From positions 1-15,186 of the forward strand of contig JADFDL010000018.1 in the NCBI GenBank assembly GCA_018262875.1: a stretch of DNA of 15,186 bases. The letters are read 5' to 3'. The stretch comes from Rhodocyclaceae bacterium (GTDB taxonomy: Bacteria > Pseudomonadota > Gammaproteobacteria > Burkholderiales > Rhodocyclaceae). Shown here one piece after another: positions 6,621 through 15,186 of this stretch. The translations under genes were made by a program, and so were the position numbers. Numbering within the stretch: position 1 is the first letter of the stretch; every line of letters begins with the position of its first letter. The notes under the pieces were generated by a model. That model was given only the letters and a program-made list of their open reading frames with translations, was not told the DNA's origin and did no database searches.

Positions 6621-6860
6621 TCATAGGTTCTTGTGCGAGCCGTCGCACAGCGGCTTGTTCGCCGAGTGCTTGCAGCCGCAGAACCACACCTTTTCCGATT
6701 TCTCCGCCTTGTATTCCACTGGCGTGAATTCAGTGCCCTTGTGCGAGCCGTCGCACAGGGGCTGACTTTTGCTTTTTCCGCAGGCGCACCACCAGTAACT
6801 TTTGCCGGCTTCCACGTCCACGGCGTAGGGGGCTTTCTGGGGGATGTCGGGATTGTTCAT
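6621..6860 (-). CDS. Dual CDGSH-type iron-sulfur protein
   Basis: A protein of 79 residues has two complete CDGSH motifs (C-x-C-x2-S-x3-P-x-C-D-G-S-H): CACGKSKSQPLCDGSH and CGCKHSANKPLCDGSH. Each should bind one [2Fe-2S] cluster by three Cys and one His, as in the mitoNEET/CISD family. The two-motif form resembles soluble CISD3-like bacterial proteins, with proposed roles in electron or cluster transfer. The start at 6860 is chosen because GGAG lies 6 nt upstream and the length suits the family. An alternative ATG at 6905 would add 15 residues with a weaker ribosome site. The gene is divergent from tusE and shares the IscR-like operator at 6912-6936, consistent with control by Fe-S status. 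The family call is firm; the function is unknown. Confidence 0.9.
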   Translation of the reverse strand: MNNPDIPQKAPYAVDVEAGKSYWWCACGKSKSQPLCDGSHKGTEFTPVEYKAEKSEKVWFCGCKHSANKPLCDGSHKNL

Positions 6861-8409: not shown

Positions 8410-8433
8410 GCCGTGTTGTGGAGACTGACTTTC
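8410..8433 (+). repeat. 24-bp dispersed repeat, copy A (left of the restriction cassette)
   Basis: This is a degenerate 24-mer beginning GCCGTGTTG and ending CTGACTTTC. It agrees with copy B (14521-14544) at 21 of 24 positions and with copy C (14671-14694) at 18 of 24. It lies between yaeQ and mod in non-coding DNA. Confidence 0.6.
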
Positions 8434-8464
8434 TACCACACTCCCCTTGATCGATTCGTCCCGG

Positions 8465-8493
8465 TTGATGACGTTGGCGAAAGTCCCTATAGT
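8465..8493 (+). promoter_or_regulatory. Predicted sigma70 promoter of the mod-res cassette
   Basis: TTGATG (8465-8470), a 17-nt spacer and TATAGT (8488-8493) give a good sigma70 match. Transcription would begin near 8500. A 6-bp perfect hairpin (CGGCGC 8506-8511, GCGCCG 8516-8521) would then lie at the very 5' end of the message, about 22 nt before the mod ATG. Confidence 0.6.
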
Positions 8494-8543
8494 CGCGGGC
8501 TGGAACGGCGCGCTGGCGCCGGTCAGGACTTGCACGGAATTTC

Positions 8544-10148
8544 ATGCCCACACTCGATTGGCTCCACAAGCAGCAGGCGATCAAGGCCGCCGGCCGCGTG
8601 CCCTACCGGCTGCTGAATGCCGAGAGCGTCCATGGCCAAATTGACACGGGCGCCGCCGACAACTGGCTGATCCAGGGTGACAACCTCGAAGCCCTCAAGG
8701 CGCTGCTGCCGTTCTACGCCGGCCGCGTGAAGTGCATCTACATCGATCCGCCCTACAACACCCGCAGCGCCTTCGAGCACTACGACGACAACCTGGAGCA
8801 CAGCCAGTGGCTGTCGATGATGTACCCGCGCCTGGAACTGCTGCGCGAACTGCTCGCCGAGGACGGCAGCATCTGGGTGTCCATCGACGATAACGAGGCG
8901 CACTACCTGAAGGCGGTAATGGACGAGGTGTTCGGGCGGGGGAATTTTGTTACCAGCGTAATCTGGCAGAAACGGGTTTCACCTGCGAACGACGCAAAAT
9001 TATTTAGCAGCGACCACGACTACGTCATCGTCTATGCGAAGCAAAAGACAGGTTGGTCGTTAAACCGGCTCAACCGAACAGAGCTGCAAAATTCTTACTA
9101 CAAAAACCCAGACGAAGATCCGCGTGGCCCATGGAACTCAGTCACCTATACAGGAAACAAAAAACGTGAGGAGCGACCAAATCTGTACTACGGCATCGTC
9201 AATCCATTCACGGGCGCAACCGTATTCCCGCCAGAAACGCTGACGTGGCGATACGGGCAAGACACGCATAATAAGAATGTTGCGGAGAACTTGCTCTACT
9301 GGGGAAAAAACGGCAATTCGAAGGTGCCGAGATTCAAGATGTTCTTGGAAGACGCAGCGCCCGTTGTTCCCAGGAGCGTATGGGCTGCATCAGAGGTAGG
9401 AAGTACGCAGCAATCAATGACTGAACAGAAGGTGCTATTCAGCGAGGCATTTGGAACCCCCAAGCCAGAATTGCTTCTTGAGCGCATCCTTCACATCGCC
9501 ACCAACTCCAACGACCTCGTCCTCGACAGCTTCCTCGGCTCGGGCACCACGGCGGCGGTGGCGCACAAGATGGGCCGGCGCTGGATCGGCATCGAGATGG
9601 GCGAGCATGCGCGCACGCATTGCCTGCCGCGCCTGGAGAAGGTGATCGCCGGCGAGCAGGGGGGCATTTCGCAGGCGGCGGGCTGGCAGGGCGGCGGCGG
9701 CTTCCGCTTCTTCACGCTCGGCCAGCCGGTGTTCCTCGCCGACGGCGGCATCGATCCGGAGATCCGCTTCGACACTCTGGCGGCCTGGGTCTGGTATCAG
9801 GAGACGCGCACACCGTGGAAAGTCAGTCCCTGCGGGACGGCGCCCCTCACCCCGGCCCTCTCCCCGCAAGCGGGGCGAGGGGGCGAAGGGGCGATGCCGG
9901 GCACGCCTGTGCTGGGCGTCCATGAGGGCAAGGCTTACGCGCTGCTCTACAACGGCATCCTCGGCGATCGCCGGCCTCAGGGCGGCAACGTGCTGACTTC
10001 AGCGGTTCTGGATGCGCTGAAGGCGCTGCTGCCCGACCATGCCGGGCCGTGGACGGTGTTCGGCGAATCCTGCCGCCTGTCGCCGCGGCGGCTGGCGGCC
10101 GAGGGCGTCCGTTTCAAACAGATTCCCTACGAGATCAAGGCGCGCTGA
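8544..10148 (+). CDS. mod: Type III-like DNA adenine methyltransferase (Mod, beta class)
   Basis: The protein has 534 residues. It should methylate adenine in a short asymmetric site using S-adenosylmethionine and serve as the specificity subunit for Res. Catalytic motif IV is DPPYNT (68-73); motif X is KPELLLERIL (307-316); the AdoMet motif I is DSFLGSGTT (328-336). The order IV then I is the beta class used by type III Mod. Residues about 134-310 between them form the target-recognition region; their DNA is only about 49% G+C, against about 72% just downstream, which suggests exchange. Residues about 426-452 (KVSPCGTAPLTPALSPQAGR...) translate an inverted 24-bp repeat copy and a GC palindrome, an apparent in-frame insertion. 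The C-terminus (LGVHEGKAYALLYNGILGD to FKQIPYEIKAR) is intact. The stop is two bases before res. Confidence 0.93.
   Translation: MPTLDWLHKQQAIKAAGRVPYRLLNAESVHGQIDTGAADNWLIQGDNLEALKALLPFYAGRVKCIYIDPPYNTRSAFEHYDDNLEHSQWLSMMYPRLELLRELLAEDGSIWVSIDDNEAHYLKAVMDEVFGRGNFVTSVIWQKRVSPANDAKLFSSDHDYVIVYAKQKTGWSLNRLNRTELQNSYYKNPDEDPRGPWNSVTYTGNKKREERPNLYYGIVNPFTGATVFPPETLTWRYGQDTHNKNVAENLLYWGKNGNSKVPRFKMFLEDAAPVVPRSVWAASEVGSTQQSMTEQKVLFSEAFGTPKPELLLERILHIATNSNDLVLDSFLGSGTTAAVAHKMGRRWIGIEMGEHARTHCLPRLEKVIAGEQGGISQAAGWQGGGGFRFFTLGQPVFLADGGIDPEIRFDTLAAWVWYQETRTPWKVSPCGTAPLTPALSPQAGRGGEGAMPGTPVLGVHEGKAYALLYNGILGDRRPQGGNVLTSAVLDALKALLPDHAGPWTVFGESCRLSPRRLAAEGVRFKQIPYEIKAR
9819..9841 (-). repeat. 24-bp dispersed repeat, copy D (inverted, inside mod)
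   Basis: On the plus strand it reads AAAGTCAGTCCC, three bases, then the end ACGGC, the reverse complement of the A/B/C repeat. It matches the complement of B at 19 of 23 positions. It is translated within mod and abuts the palindrome that follows, so the two may have arrived together. The match is weaker than among A, B and C. Confidence 0.45.
9843..9891. repeat. GC-rich palindromic (REP-like) element inside mod
   Basis: The left arm (9843-9867, ending CTCTCCCCGC) and right arm (9870-9891, beginning GCGGGGCGAG) pair around the loop AA with a three-base gap. It has the look of the common intergenic 'CCCTCACCCC...CTCTCCCGC' palindrome of proteobacteria, whose translated form PLTPALSP is familiar at gene ends. 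Here it is read through in frame. Confidence 0.7.
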
Positions 10149-10150
10149 CC

Positions 10151-12883
10151 ATGAGCCTGACACTCAAGCATTACCAGACCGCGGCGCTCGACGTGCTGGC
10201 GCGGTTTTTCGATCTGTCGCGCGGGGCGGGCGATGAGGCGGCGCTGGATGCCGCCTTCCGCCAGACGCTGATCGAGCAGGAACTGCCGGCCGAGGCCATC
10301 CCGCCTTATCTGTCGCAGGGTTTTGCCGCGACGCCCTATGTCTGCCTGCGCATTCCCACCGGCGGCGGCAAGACCCTGCTCGGCGCCCATGCCGTCGCCT
10401 GCGCGGCGCGGCATTACACCGGCCAGGAGCGGCCGGTGGCGCTGTGGCTGGTGCCGACCAACACCATACGGAGCCAGACGCTCAACGCGCTGCGCCAGCC
10501 GGGCCATCCCTATCGCGAGGCGCTGGAACAGCATTTCGGCGTGGACGGCCTGCGTGTGATCGACATCACCGAGTGCGAGCAGTTGCGGCCGCAGGATTTC
10601 GGCGGCCGGGCCATCGTGGTGGTAGGCACCCTGCAGACGCTGCGCGTCGAAGACACTTCGGGCCGCGACGTGTATGCCTACAAGGAAGCCTTCGAGCCGC
10701 ATTTCGAGCGGGCGCCGGAGTTGGCAGGTTTCGAGTGCGTCGAAGAAAAAGACCTCGCGGCGCAGCCGTATCTGGGCCGTGCCGACCTGGGCCGCGTGAA
10801 GCGCAGCTTCGCCAACCTGATGTACTGGCACCGTCCGATCGTGATCATCGACGAGGCGCACAACGCGCGCGGCGCCCTGAGCTACGAGACTTTCGCGCGC
10901 CTGCGGCCGGCGGCGCTGATCGAGATGACGGCGACGCCCGTGCGCAAGGGCGCGCACCGCAGCAATGTGCTCTACCACGTCTCGGCCGAGGCGCTGAAGG
11001 CGGAGCAGATGATCAAGCTGCCCATCGTGCTGCAGGCGCATCCGAACTGGCAGGAGGCGGTGCGCGACGCGCTGCTGACGCGCAAGCGCCTGGCAGCGGA
11101 GGCAGCGAACGAAGACGACTACCTGCGGCCGATCCTGTTGCTTCAGGCGGAGGACAAGGCGGGCGAGGTGACGGTGGACAAGCTGCGCGCCCATCTTGTC
11201 GAGCAGGAACATGTCGCCACGGCGCGCATCGCCGTGGCGACGGGCACGCAGCGGGAGCTGGACGGCGTGAACCTGTTCGATCCGGCCTGTCCGGTGGAGA
11301 TCGTGATTACCGTAGAGGCGTTGAAGGAAGGCTGGGATTGCTCCTTCGCCTACGTATTCTGCTCCCTGCAGAAGATCGGTTCGAGCAAGGACATGGAGCA
11401 GTTGCTGGGCCGTGTGCTGCGCATGCCGTATGCGCGGCGGCGCAAGAGCGAACTGTTGAACCGTGCCTACGCCCACGTGGCCAGCGCGGAAACCCTGCAG
11501 GTGGCGAACGCGCTGGCCGACAAATTGGTGGCGATGGGCTTTGAGGAGCTGGAGGCGGCCCAGGCGGTGTTCCCCACCACGACGCCGCTGTTCGACGCGG
11601 TGGGCGGCGCTGCGGCCGGCCTCGTGCCGCCGCCGATGGAGTGGGTGCTGCCGCAGGCGCCGGCCCTGCCGGCGGCCGCGGCCGAAGCCGCCGGCATGAC
11701 GCTGGAGGCGCACCCGGCAGGCGGGTTCGCACTGTGCCTGTCGCAGCCGCCGACGGCGGAGGTGCGCGACGCTCTGCTCGCCGCGCTGCCGACCAAGAAG
11801 GAGCAGGAAGCCTTCGCGCATGCGCTGGATCGCTTCGAGTTGCGCCATCAGGCGCAGATGGCGCCGTCGCTGCGCGGCGTGCCGTTCCGGCCGCTGCCCC
11901 TGCTGTGCATTCGATTGGGTGGCGAGGGCGAAGGCGGGCAGGCCGACCTCGATCTGGCGGAGAAGGAAACGCTGGTCGACCTGGCCGGCTTCTCGCTCTC
12001 GGCGCAGGCGCCGGAATTGGCGGGGTTCGTGCCGGAAGCCGACCGCAAGCCCTATTTGCTGGACGTGGAGAACGGGCACTTGCGCATCGAGCAGGAGCAG
12101 GCAGCGTATGGCGTGAACCTCGATCTGGTGCCGACCGACGTGACGGAAACCGACCTGGTGCGCTGGCTCGACGAACGCCTGCGCACGGCGGGCGTGACGC
12201 AGTCCGAGCGGTTGGTCTGGCTGGGCAAGGTGCTGCGCTGGCTGCAACGGGAACGCAACTATTCGCTGACGGCGCTGGTGCGCCACCGCAACCAGTTGGC
12301 CGATGCGCTGGCGGAGCGCATGGCAGCGCTGCGCAGCGAGGCGCAGAAGGTCGGCTTCCAGATGACACTGCTGGGCGACGATCCGAGGGGCTGCGTGAGC
12401 GGGGACTATGTGTTCCGCTTCGGGCCGGGCGCCTATCCGGCGCAGCCGCCCTACTATCAGGGCCGCCATCGCTTCCGCAAGCATTACTACGGCGTGATCG
12501 GCGAGTTGAAGGATCCGCCGCCGAGGCAGACGGACCACGAGTTCCATTGCGCGGCGGCGCTCGACGAACATCCGGCCGTGCGCCACTGGGTGCGCAACCT
12601 GCCGAAGAGCGAATTCTCCTTCAGCCTGCCGACTTCGGGACAGAACTTCTATCCCGATTTCGTCTGCGAACTGATGGACGGCCGCCACTTCGTGGTGGAG
12701 TACAAGGGCGAGGGCTACAAGACCAACGACGATTCGCAGGCCAAGCGCCTGGTCGGCGAATTCTGGGCCGGGGCGAGCGGCAATCTCTTCCTGATGGCGG
12801 TGGAAAAGGATGGCCAGGGGCGAGATGTGCGGAAGCAGATCGAAGCCGCCATCGGGACCGTTGCCGGAGAGGGGAGCCGATGA
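10151..12883 (+). CDS. res: Type III-like restriction endonuclease subunit (Res helicase-nuclease)
   Basis: The protein has 910 residues and is a superfamily 2 helicase with a C-terminal nuclease. Walker A is PTGGGKT (69-75), the DEAH box is IIDEAHNARG (232-241), motif III is MTATP (259-263), and motif VI is QLLGRVLRMP (417-426). Near the C-terminus, FYPDFVCEL with VVEYKG (Pro835-Asp836, Glu850, Lys852) is a complete PD-(D/E)xK nuclease site. Such proteins complex with Mod and translocate or slide on DNA before cleaving near unmethylated sites. All key motifs are present, so the enzyme looks active. Length is close to EcoP1I-type Res (about 970). It follows mod by 2 nt; its TGA overlaps an ATG at 12880. 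G+C is high throughout, unlike the middle of mod. Confidence 0.93.
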   Translation: MSLTLKHYQTAALDVLARFFDLSRGAGDEAALDAAFRQTLIEQELPAEAIPPYLSQGFAATPYVCLRIPTGGGKTLLGAHAVACAARHYTGQERPVALWLVPTNTIRSQTLNALRQPGHPYREALEQHFGVDGLRVIDITECEQLRPQDFGGRAIVVVGTLQTLRVEDTSGRDVYAYKEAFEPHFERAPELAGFECVEEKDLAAQPYLGRADLGRVKRSFANLMYWHRPIVIIDEAHNARGALSYETFARLRPAALIEMTATPVRKGAHRSNVLYHVSAEALKAEQMIKLPIVLQAHPNWQEAVRDALLTRKRLAAEAANEDDYLRPILLLQAEDKAGEVTVDKLRAHLVEQEHVATARIAVATGTQRELDGVNLFDPACPVEIVITVEALKEGWDCSFAYVFCSLQKIGSSKDMEQLLGRVLRMPYARRRKSELLNRAYAHVASAETLQVANALADKLVAMGFEELEAAQAVFPTTTPLFDAVGGAAAGLVPPPMEWVLPQAPALPAAAAEAAGMTLEAHPAGGFALCLSQPPTAEVRDALLAALPTKKEQEAFAHALDRFELRHQAQMAPSLRGVPFRPLPLLCIRLGGEGEGGQADLDLAEKETLVDLAGFSLSAQAPELAGFVPEADRKPYLLDVENGHLRIEQEQAAYGVNLDLVPTDVTETDLVRWLDERLRTAGVTQSERLVWLGKVLRWLQRERNYSLTALVRHRNQLADALAERMAALRSEAQKVGFQMTLLGDDPRGCVSGDYVFRFGPGAYPAQPPYYQGRHRFRKHYYGVIGELKDPPPRQTDHEFHCAAALDEHPAVRHWVRNLPKSEFSFSLPTSGQNFYPDFVCELMDGRHFVVEYKGEGYKTNDDSQAKRLVGEFWAGASGNLFLMAVEKDGQGRDVRKQIEAAIGTVAGEGSR

Positions 12884-13011
12884 ACCCGTATCTTTCCGAC
12901 AGCGGATACGCTCCGAGGAGGGGTGAATCGAAGCGCGGCGCTTATCACATCCGAAAATGGAAAATCACGAAAAATCCTTTTGTATCAACAGGCTTTAATC
13001 ATCATGGCTAG
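12880..13011 (+). CDS. Possible small ORF (43 residues) coupled to res
   Basis: The ATG overlaps the res stop (ATGA), giving a 43-residue reading, MNPYLSDSGYAPRRGESKRG followed by a basic end. It overlaps the start of the next gene by 8 nt. I recognise no family. Its G+C falls towards the 3' end, and it could be the remnant of a longer gene or simply a gap between res and the AlbA-type gene. Coupled overlap is the only positive evidence. Confidence 0.3.
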   Translation: MNPYLSDSGYAPRRGESKRGAYHIRKWKITKNPFVSTGFNHHG

Positions 13012-14464
13012 CAAGCACTGGGTGGCAGGGGCATTGACCTGCCTGGAAGAAAGCCTGAGACCGGTGCCGCATGAGACCAATGAGATCGACTGGAAGATCA
13101 GCCTCTCGGAGAAGAAAGACCGCTTGATCGAACACCTGATTGCCTTTGCCAATTATCCGAACGGCGGCTTTCTGGTTTTCGGCGTGCGGGATGGTGACGG
13201 CCAACTTGAGCCGGTTGACCGGGATGCTGTCGCGGAAATCGCCAACACGCTGGCGAATCTGGGCCGCGATGCGGTGGAGCCGCCTATCGCCATCGACCAT
13301 GCCGTGGTCGAGTATCGCGGCGTGCCTGTACTGCTGGTGAGCATTCCCGAGCAACGCCACAAGCCGGTTCACCGGCGCGGCAAGTCCGTTGAGGAATCGT
13401 GGGTGCGCTCGGGCGGCACGACGCGCAAGGCGTCTCGCCAGGAAGTCGGGGCCTTGATGCTGAACAGCACGGCGCCTAGATGGGAAGAGTTGCGAGCTTC
13501 AGGCCTGTTATCGATAGACGAGGCGGTGGACAACCTCGATCTGGACACGATCGCTAAATTGCTGCAGCGGCCGTTGCCGCAAGAAAAGGATGCGCTTGCG
13601 GCATGGCTTGCGGACGAGGGCATTCTGGCGCCTGACGGCCGCGGCTATTACATTACCCATTTCGGCGCCGTGGCGGCGGCGCGCCGACTGGAGCGGTTTC
13701 CGGCGCTCGAACGCAAGCGCATCCGCGTCATTCGCTATCGCGGTACGAACAAGGTTGAGACGATCGACGAGTTGGTCGGGCAGCGCGGCTATGCGGTGGG
13801 GTTCGAGGGGCTGATCGGCCATCTCAAACGGGTGCTGCCGCATTCCGAGGTGATAGAGCAATCCCTGCGTGTCGAGGTGAGCGTCTATCCGGAAATCGCT
13901 CTGCGCGAATTGATTGCCAATGCCCTGATCCACCAGGATTTCACCGTGACCGGAGCGGGACCGATGGTCGAAATTTTCGACGACAGGATCGAGTTCACCA
14001 ACCCCGGCGGGCTATTGCCGGGCAAGCGTCCGGACCGCTTGATCGGCGCGACACCGGAATCGCGCAACGAGATTCTGGCATCGGCATTCCGGCGCTATCG
14101 GATTTGCGAGGAACGTGGCACCGGCTTCCAGAAGGTGGTGCAGTCGGTGGAGTTGTTCGGACTGCCGCCGATCATGTTTACCGTGATGGACAATGCCTTT
14201 CGCGTCACGCTGTTCGCGCCACGCAAGTTTGCGGAGATGTCTCAGAGCGAGCGCATCGAGGCCTGCTATCAACATGCGGTGTTGCAGTATTTATCGAGCC
14301 AGACCCTGACCAATAGTACGCTGCGCGAGCGCTTCAAGTTGCACGATAAGCAGCGTAACCAGATCACAAATCTGATCGGCGATGCCGTTGCTGCCGGAAG
14401 AATCAAGCGCAAGGACGCCGGGAGCGGCAACAAGTTCGCGGAGTATCTGCCTTACTGGGCCTGA
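13004..14464 (+). CDS. Schlafen/AlbA_2 domain plus GHKL-type ATP-binding protein
   Basis: The protein has 486 residues. The N-terminal AlbA_2 (Schlafen-like) domain (about 24-150) shows ETNEIDWK (24-31) and LIAFANYPNGGFLVFGVRDGDG (45-66). A second domain resembles HATPase_c_4: YPEIALRELIANALIHQDF (295-313, N-box type), MVEIFDDRIEFTNPGGLLPG (321-340) and RICEERGTGFQKV (366-378, G-box type). The end (about 415-480, NSTLRERFKLHDKQRNQITNLIGDAVAAGRIKRK) looks like a winged helix. Such proteins are usually annotated as DNA-binding transcriptional regulators, and AlbA_2/Schlafen relatives include nucleic-acid binding or RNase enzymes. As the last gene after mod-res it may regulate or add an effector function (inference). 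The ATG at 13004 is chosen because family homology starts soon after; a GTG at 12923 is possible but its GAGGAGG is too close. Confidence 0.85.
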   Translation: MASKHWVAGALTCLEESLRPVPHETNEIDWKISLSEKKDRLIEHLIAFANYPNGGFLVFGVRDGDGQLEPVDRDAVAEIANTLANLGRDAVEPPIAIDHAVVEYRGVPVLLVSIPEQRHKPVHRRGKSVEESWVRSGGTTRKASRQEVGALMLNSTAPRWEELRASGLLSIDEAVDNLDLDTIAKLLQRPLPQEKDALAAWLADEGILAPDGRGYYITHFGAVAAARRLERFPALERKRIRVIRYRGTNKVETIDELVGQRGYAVGFEGLIGHLKRVLPHSEVIEQSLRVEVSVYPEIALRELIANALIHQDFTVTGAGPMVEIFDDRIEFTNPGGLLPGKRPDRLIGATPESRNEILASAFRRYRICEERGTGFQKVVQSVELFGLPPIMFTVMDNAFRVTLFAPRKFAEMSQSERIEACYQHAVLQYLSSQTLTNSTLRERFKLHDKQRNQITNLIGDAVAAGRIKRKDAGSGNKFAEYLPYWA

Positions 14465-14520
14465 GTGCGCGCCGCCATTCGCAGTCCCATGGCTGCCAGA
14501 AAACCCGCGTCCTCATCGTT

Positions 14521-14544
14521 GCCGTGTTGCGGGGACTGACTTTT
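14521..14544 (+). repeat. 24-bp dispersed repeat, copy B (right of the cassette)
   Basis: It begins GCCGTGTTGCGGGG and ends CTGACTTTT. It shares 21 of 24 positions with copy A (8410-8433) and 21 of 24 with copy C. It starts 56 bp after the stop of the AlbA_2 gene and is in the same orientation as A. Confidence 0.65.
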
Positions 14545-14556
14545 CATGGCATCAGT

Positions 14557-14617
14557 AAATGGGGTAATGGAAGGTTTTTTTACCCGCGCCCCATTGTTTT
14601 GCACCGTTACCCCATTT
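14557..14617. repeat. Spaced inverted repeat
   Basis: AAATGGGGTAATGG (14557-14570) is repeated inverted as CCGTTACCCCATTT (14604-14617) with one mismatch and a 33-bp spacer. A further CCCCATT (14589-14595) lies inside the spacer. It may be a remnant of transposon ends or a binding site; no function is known. Confidence 0.55.
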
Positions 14618-14636
14618 CCGGAAAAGCAGAAGAAAA

Positions 14637-14664
14637 AACGGCGCCGGGTTGCCCCGGCGCCGTT
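14637..14664 (-). terminator. Intrinsic terminator of malate synthase A
   Basis: A perfect 12-bp hairpin (AACGGCGCCGGG, loop of four, CCCGGCGCCGTT) is read on the minus strand and followed there by TTTTTTCTTCT when the last paired Ts are included. It begins 28 nt after the malate synthase stop, the usual place for a Rho-independent terminator. Confidence 0.85.
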
Positions 14665-14670
14665 GTTGTC

Positions 14671-14694
14671 GCCGTATTGCAGGGGCTGACTTTT
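14671..14694 (+). repeat. 24-bp dispersed repeat, copy C
   Basis: It begins GCCGTATTGCAGGGG and ends CTGACTTTT; 21 of 24 positions match copy B, same orientation, with 126 bp between the two. Its last two bases overlap the TAA of malate synthase (14693-14695). Confidence 0.6.
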
Positions 14695-15186
14695 ACTCCA
14701 TCGCCTCGTACAGCGGCAGGGTGAGAAACTCCGGGTAGTCGGGCGACAGGCTCATCTTCTCGAAGATGACCGCGGCCTGGTCGTAGGTGGCAGTCTGTTC
14801 GCCGGCGGCACTGACCGTGGCCTTGACCTTGGCGAGCTCCTCGGGGATCAGCGCCTTCACCATCTCGGCGGTGACCTTGCGGCCATCGTCGAGCTTGCCC
14901 TTCGGGCTGACCACCCACTGCCAGATCTGCGAGCGCGAGATCTCGGCGGTGGCGGCGTCCTCCATCAGGTTGTGGATGGGCACGCAGCCGTTGCCGGCGA
15001 GCCAGGAACCGAGGTAGTGGATGCCGACGTTGATGTTGTTGCGCACGCCGACCTCGGTGATCGGCTGCTCGGGCTGGAAGTCGAGCCAGTTCTTCGGGCC
15101 GTAGGTGTCGGTGCGCTGCTTGTCCCACTGGTTCGGCCGGTCGCCGAGCACCTTGACGAATTCCTCCATGGCGATGGAGACGAGGC
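14693..15186 (-). CDS. aceB: Malate synthase A, 3' part
   Basis: This is the last 164 residues; the 5' part is beyond the window edge and the reading frame stays open to it. Malate synthase condenses glyoxylate and acetyl-CoA to malate in the glyoxylate bypass. NINVGIHYLGSWLAGNGCVPIHNLMEDAATAEISRSQIWQWV is nearly diagnostic for the A-type enzyme; the Asp in LMEDAATAE is the position of the catalytic base in AceB, as I recall. KGKLDDGRKVTAEMV and the ending FLTLPLYEAME also fit. An intrinsic terminator follows at 14637-14664. Isocitrate lyase is not in the window. Confidence 0.95.
   Translation of the reverse strand, partial: LVSIAMEEFVKVLGDRPNQWDKQRTDTYGPKNWLDFQPEQPITEVGVRNNINVGIHYLGSWLAGNGCVPIHNLMEDAATAEISRSQIWQWVVSPKGKLDDGRKVTAEMVKALIPEELAKVKATVSAAGEQTATYDQAAVIFEKMSLSPDYPEFLTLPLYEAME

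Follow-up and report, generated by a model that had tools for sequence, protein, structure and literature searches.

A dispersed 25-bp motif found beside a type III restriction cassette in Rhodocyclaceae is a candidate DNA-uptake-sequence-like tag

Three degenerate direct repeats around a type III restriction cassette in a 15,186-nucleotide stretch of a Rhodocyclaceae genome (the whole stretch analysed, called the window below) are local members of a motif that occurs throughout the genome. From sequence comparisons we consider that this motif is probably a tag of the bacterial family of the window, comparable to the DNA uptake sequences (DUS) and USS of other bacteria. Seven properties of DUS and USS were observed: abundance, presence on both strands, occurrence in genes and in gaps, a frame preference, an origin by substitution, dialects and loss in single lineages. 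In the proposed mechanism, cells of motif-rich genera would use type IV pili and ComEC for DNA import, import would favour fragments bearing the tag, and the tag would become enriched in the chromosome as imported fragments recombine. At the aceB-yaeQ locus, the type III restriction cassette would have entered beside or through an existing copy, leaving tags on both sides.

The preliminary description had reported three 24-mers of the same orientation, with neighbours sharing 21 of 24 bases and with no other intergenic copy in the window. All three were found again at 8410..8433 (AAAGTCAGTCTCCACAACACGGC, 2 mismatches, upstream of yaeQ, to the left of mod), 14521..14544 (AAAGTCAGTCCCCGCAACACGGC, 0 mismatches, right of the AlbA_2 gene) and 14671..14694 (AAAGTCAGCCCCTGCAATACGGC, overlapping the aceB stop codon, 1 mismatch when position 9 of the consensus is taken as Y). 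Read on the minus strand, each is 5'-AAAGTCAG...ACGGC, and the identity of 21 in 24 bases between neighbours held in a comparison by eye. The absence of further intergenic copies was also confirmed, two additional copies being both intragenic: one on the plus strand inside mod (9819..9841), in a length-variable linker adjoining a GC-rich repeat, and one motif-like copy on the minus strand inside a CDGSH gene (6747..6769, 2-3 mismatches), which codes for K-S-Q-P-L-C-D-G and was found in the relative G010 (L176) as well. A sixth copy in the window was not found at up to 6 mismatches.

A search of the genome and its relatives, proposed earlier as a check, revealed the wider distribution. A first query, one stretch of the window, matched six short segments spread over five other contigs. 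The query AAAGTCAGTCCCNGCRNCACGGC, allowing up to 3 mismatches, matched 243 times in the own assembly (2,002,337 bases, 54 % complete; 135 forward, 108 reverse) and 488 times in G002, a relative with a complete genome (240 forward, 248 reverse); this equals one copy per 8.2 kb and per 6.4 kb, respectively. The reversed pattern, as a control at the same threshold, had 0 matches in both. At the density of the own assembly, 1.84 copies are expected in the 15.2 kb of the window and 5 were present (Poisson P ~0.04); the bracketing of the cassette by repeats is only mildly above what the motif density gives. An 800-kb sample of G002 (40 stretches of 20 kb) held 132 copies at up to 4 mismatches, distributed as 9, 36, 40, 31 and 16 copies with 0 to 4 mismatches, and one first-order Markov set held none; together with the reversed control, this places the motif far above chance. 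The consensus of this sample spans 25 bp, A-AAAGTCAGT-CCCNGC-RRS-ACGGC-G, and conserved information stops at its borders, the flanks carrying little; the copies were chosen by pattern, which flatters the information values of the inner positions. The motif is asymmetric and, by eye, not a palindrome. Among the 10- and 12-mers of the sample, its words ranked first in over-representation, AAAGTCAGTC being observed 100 times against 0.17 expected. A scan of 160 kb of the motif-poor congener G008 for another over-represented word yielded none comparable.

The placement of the copies was analysed in the G002 sample with a simple gene finder of our own (811 genes, 92.4 % coding). One hundred of the 132 copies were intragenic, 58 antisense and 42 sense, and 79 of these were in whichever frame was most frequent for their orientation (P 1e-20 for an expectation of one third, with that frame picked post hoc and this choice uncorrected). 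The remaining 32 copies were intergenic, a 3.2-fold excess over the 7.6 % of intergenic sequence (P 4e-9), and 23 of them were located 3' of a gene on the same strand. Among the 31 intergenic copies having both neighbours, 14 were in convergent gaps, which comprise 9 % of the intergenic bases (P 2e-7), and only one was in a divergent gap, a class that comprises 24 % (P 0.005). Copies per stretch were Poisson-like (variance/mean 0.90), and their number rose with the GC content of the stretch (rho 0.48, P 0.0015). The motif itself is no GC-richer than the genome; the GC-linked density would fit its depletion in foreign, low-GC DNA. Close pairs were rare, with 1 of 94 neighbour distances below 100 bp.

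Gain and loss of the motif were followed at the nucleotide level by comparing sites of G002, as reference, with orthologous DNA of congeners. In five motif-rich congeners the motif was aligned gap-free in 14 of 18 site-genome pairs, which represent five sites of a single 20-kb stretch (L028) picked for its many copies; the motif was retained in 13 of the 14 gap-free pairs, and all four gapped pairs came from two intergenic sites. In the motif-poor G008, 4 of 5 pairs were gap-free and the motif was kept in none of these four (5 to 7 mismatches). Retention in the rich congeners together with the mismatches in G008 indicates, within this small sample, that genomes rich in the motif keep their copies in place, and that substitutions erode the copies of a genome poor in it. 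The motif appears to arise and to decay at its sites through substitution rather than insertion, as far as so few sites can indicate. The same gap argument was applied earlier to USS, according to passages of PMC1626085. For 96 intragenic copies, distant homologues were also queried at the protein level: 29 had a homologue over the site, 17 of them gapless and 12 gapped. Many of these homologues were too remote or paralogous and therefore unsuitable, thus the nucleotide comparison among congeners was used.

The distribution of the motif within the family was determined in a sample of 297 genomes and 68 genera, taken from a larger group; the query was AAAGTCNGTNNNNGCNNNACGGC, at most 1 mismatch being allowed. 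Fifty genomes had at least 40 copies; they belong to nine genera (g1, g10, g17, g27, g31, g46, g54, g72 and g74). Three more genomes within the same nine genera had 15 to 39 copies, the other 244 had at most 12, and the reversed control gave at most 6 per genome. Near-absence was observed in single species of motif-rich genera: G008 had 7 copies (98 % complete), G259 had 0 (87 % complete) and G238 had 1 (85 % complete). The genus of the window includes the metagenome-assembled genomes 'Sulfuritalea sp. PRO1' (G007) and 'Rhodocyclaceae bacterium SB9' (G005); NCBI places Sulfuritalea in the Sterolibacteriaceae. Samples of the order and the class were searched more strictly, with AAAGTCNGNNNNNGCNNNACGGC and no mismatch, a search that finds 113 copies in the own genome and would miss more divergent forms. 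In the order sample (399 genomes) the best genome from outside the family had 10 copies, and in the class sample (369 genomes) the own genome alone had more than 2. Many of the stray copies outside the family were, among those listed, full dialect copies, which is expected if DNA was transferred. A plasmid search with one g27-type copy returned three weak records. Three viral contigs carried one copy each in the form of the window genus.

The motif occurs in dialects. Consensus forms were derived for six other genera from 60-100 kb each and from 9 to 23 copies apiece. While the window genus has ..GTCAGTCCCNGCRRSACGGCG, the form is ..GTCGGCGCTGGCGGGACGGC in g27, ..GTCGGCGCTGGCGGSACGGCG in g54, ..GTCGGCGCTGGCGATACGGCG in g46, ..GTCGGCGCTGGCGAYACGGCG in g10, ..GTCGGCGCTGGCGAGACGGCG in g72 and ..GTCGGTGCTGGCGGGACGGCG in g17; the finer distinctions between the forms of g54, g46, g10 and g72 are tentative. 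For g31, no copy was present in 60 kb of G041. The nine motif genera may form one clade, and in that case several lineages would have lost the motif. In a ComEC tree of 39 rows (G194 gave no ComEC match), a single clade was not rejected (p-AU 0.316) and appeared in 5 % of the bootstrap trees; this test used 34 of the 39 rows, after the long-branched motif-poor G031, G069, G078, G033 and G026 were dropped, and the group was defined after the first trees had been viewed.

Components of the competence machinery were at least partly present. ComEC was detected in 39 of the 40 genomes tried and GspH/FimT-type pilins in 38 of 40, with G002 and G064, both motif-rich, giving no pilin match. As discriminators the two families were discarded, for they exhibited no contrast between motif-rich and motif-poor genomes; the step from the motif to DNA uptake is thus one that we infer. 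The uptake-tag explanation has to accommodate a motif that is longer and less numerous than DUS and that rarely forms close pairs.

The cassette consists of mod, encoding a type III DNA methyltransferase (8544..10148), res, encoding a type III restriction enzyme (10151..12883), and a gene for a protein with AlbA_2 (Schlafen) and HATPase_c_4 domains (13004..14464), all on the plus strand. It is flanked on the minus strand by yaeQ (PF07152; 7847..8386) on the left and by the C-terminal part of the malate synthase gene aceB on the right (14693..15169, a frame reaching the window edge). A terminator-like stem with a T run, recognised by eye, follows on the minus strand at 14634..14665, 3' of aceB and of the third motif copy. 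The predicted empty site, a single repeat in strains lacking the cassette, was encountered in G010 and G009: here aceB adjoins yaeQ with one motif copy between them, with 0 mismatches in G010 and 4 in G009. G010 is the nearest among 11 yaeQ loci (YaeQ 93 % identical). In the filled site of the window, aceB and yaeQ each retain a copy on their own side of the insert. The third copy of the window occupies the same position relative to aceB as the single empty-site copy of G010 and G009. In the remaining 9 of the 11 yaeQ loci, stretches of 1.8 to 3.5 kb, no aceB was detected next to yaeQ, thus these loci show no empty junction; the locus L186 comes without the yaeQ start. 'Sulfuritalea sp. PRO1' (L037) has a related mod-res block adjoining aceB (Res 90 %, Mod 72 % identical), with one motif on the left and two on the right (3, 4 and 3 mismatches). 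Its left border repeats, by eye, 26 bp around the right-most motif and 16 bp of the aceB tail as well. A Fic-like gene, by our own reading of the sequence, is located left of the block, and the slot of the AlbA_2 gene is occupied by other sequence. The aceB-yaeQ junction is thus variable in content, and relatives that lack the insert carry a motif there.

The earlier interpretation of these repeats, an insertion bordered by them through recombination or through an element that targets them, is partly supported; it is compatible with the uptake-tag explanation and possible for the local site, though less likely than not. In its favour are the one-copy empty junctions, the three copies of the related PRO1 block with its repeated aceB tail, and a second case in the motif-poor G310, where 15 kb around a type I restriction system, which adjoins an integrase and an AbiEii gene, contain four copies. 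A precedent is the neisserial ICENmu, for which passages of PMC7371117 describe DUS sites as attachment sites. The motif is, however, no border element: it is scattered over the genome in hundreds of copies, most of them in genes, so that a position at a border alone is no sign of insertion via the motif, and at this density border copies are not rare. Besides, in G002 and G004 a copy is situated within 120 bp upstream of yaeQ in a locus without aceB or cassette, and a scan of 8 window proteins, those of the three cassette genes among them, gave no integrase, in line with the preliminary description.

For the motif as a whole, the main rival is a site without a role in uptake, bound throughout the genome by a protein that organises the chromosome or serves replication or recombination, as known from KOPS, Chi, matS and nucleoid-occlusion sites. 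The genome-wide, Poisson-like numbers and the conservation at orthologous positions suit such a site, as does the failure of the two competence families tried to discriminate rich from poor genomes. The strand counts speak on both sides. The 800-kb sample of G002 had 54 forward and 78 reverse copies (P 0.045), and its first third was skewed, 14 to 29 (P 0.03); however, the other two thirds had 22 to 24 and 18 to 25, and over the whole of G002 the strands are even (240/248). Near-absence in the congeners G008, G259 and G238 would moreover require that the site be dispensable. We regard a chromosome-protein site as unlikely. Spread of a mobile repeat by insertion, as REP/RAYT, MITE or transposon end, is improbable. 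A possible source exists in the motif-poor G100, in which IS91-family units (Y2 transposase; IS91-like element, L168) bear identical tandem motif copies, and gaps consistent with insertion were seen in 4 of the 18 congener pairs and near the motif in 12 of the 29 distant protein comparisons; the copy within mod also has extra residues relative to two homologues. Yet 100 of 132 copies are intragenic and frame-biased, the flanks are unconserved and no palindrome is apparent by eye, and the alignments with rich relatives (14 of 18) and with G008 (4 of 5) were gap-free. The extragenic inserted copies with hairpins or terminal repeats that characterise REP/RAYT and MITE families were not what we found.

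A signal for a transcription factor or at the RNA level, such as a terminator or a 3' UTR element, is very improbable, in spite of the prevalence of intergenic copies 3' of same-strand genes and of the third window copy, which overlaps the aceB stop codon and is followed by the terminator-like stem. Intragenic copies are more often antisense than sense, the window has no Rfam match at the gathering threshold, and a single one of 31 copies lies in the divergent gaps, although a regulator would be expected to bind in gaps of this type. Sharing of a terminator as a general role, an idea prompted by the G010 and G009 junctions, was dropped: the complementary CGCCGT was present within ~50 nt downstream at only 1 of the 32 intergenic copies.

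In the literature, no link of uptake sequences to Rhodocyclaceae, Sulfuritalea, Accumulibacter, Thauera or Azoarcus was among the matches listed, in a scope that excluded preprints and most subscription papers; the matching text of PMC10257627 mentions Rhodocyclaceae once, solely as enriched under kanamycin. Among the best 10 of 13 records matching any of four motif strings, none dealt with the motif by title or abstract. A bolder version of the uptake-tag explanation, to which we give a low probability, holds that a third family independently evolved sequence-specific, self-recognising natural transformation, based on a tag of 25 bp with a dialect in each genus, and that restriction and defence cassettes use the tag as uptake passport and landing place. 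The cases cited for passport and landing place are the aceB-yaeQ site in the window and in PRO1 and the type I restriction island in G310. If true, this third, unrelated and longer motif would mean that uptake specific for own DNA has more evolutionary origins than believed. The several forms and natural losses would render gain, drift and loss of such a motif testable and point to a search for the receptor, and stray copies in other families would mark gene flow out of the motif-rich bacteria.

KOPS and Chi are octamers with strong strand polarity. The present motif resembles them as a genome-wide over-represented DNA signal, but it measures ~25 bp and, counted over the complete G002 genome, favours neither strand. 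As at the site of an integrative element, one copy is present at the empty site and copies flank the filled one on both sides, in the window and beside aceB in PRO1; an integrase gene in the element was not found among the 8 window proteins. ICENmu of commensal Neisseria is likewise accessory DNA with a host uptake-type motif at its junctions, as passages of PMC7371117 describe, whereas the insert here is a small type III restriction cassette and an integrase was again not among the 8 window proteins. Known DUS and USS are confined to Neisseriaceae and Pasteurellaceae, according to a passage of a 2025 paper (PMC12616744). The USS of Pasteurellaceae belong to another family, have an unrelated sequence and differ from the present motif, whose function is putative, but share with it the intragenic frame preference (PMC2346458) and the origin by substitution without insertion (passages of PMC1626085). 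The neisserial DUS likewise has an unrelated sequence. With about 10-12 bp and the receptor ComP, the DUS is shorter than the ~25 bp with degenerate middle found here, and it is reported in thousands of copies (passages of PMC3630211) against hundreds. Inverted pairs with a terminator role are reported to be frequent among neisserial DUS and are an accessory feature, not a defining one for USS; close pairs are rare in our motif. In common with DUS, as portrayed in passages of PMC3630211 and PMC12616744, the motif is an over-represented word in and between genes, with dialects across related genera, missing from some relatives and with stray foreign copies elsewhere.

Copies of the repeat motif also lie inside genes of the window. 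The mod gene contains a length-variable linker (9815-9905) in which a GC-rich inverted repeat, coding PLTPALSPQAGRGG, comes after a copy of the motif; this linker differs in the homologues of Sulfuritalea sp. PRO1, a metagenome-assembled genome of the window's genus, and of locus L036. A motif-like copy at 6747-6769 overlaps the codons that are conserved in the CDGSH iron-sulphur motif and is present as well in G010, a relative without the cassette. Between the second and third motif copies, at 14545-14640, lies a further inverted repeat, AATGGGGTAA...TTACCCCATT, partly conserved in PRO1.

Outside the motif-rich genomes, 10 motif copies were found in G391, a genome from another family of the order. 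Since the AGTCCC and GGCGCTGG forms both occur there, more than one motif-rich donor appears to have passed motif DNA to it. In the motif-poor genome G310, which also carries locus L043, an integrase and an AbiEii-type gene adjoin type I hsdR/S/M (L169, 129-19958); four motif copies of mixed form lie inside 15 kb, and the locus may be a defence island acquired from a donor rich in the motif. Another motif-poor genome, G100, contains tandemly arranged IS91-family (Y2) transposase units (L168, 10591-14957). In these units the transposase frames are preceded, at a distance of about 100 bp, by motif copies of identical sequence, AAAGTCGGCGCTGGCAACACGGC. Three viral contigs of IMG/VR (L252, L253 and L254) each carry one exact copy of the motif form of the window's genus.
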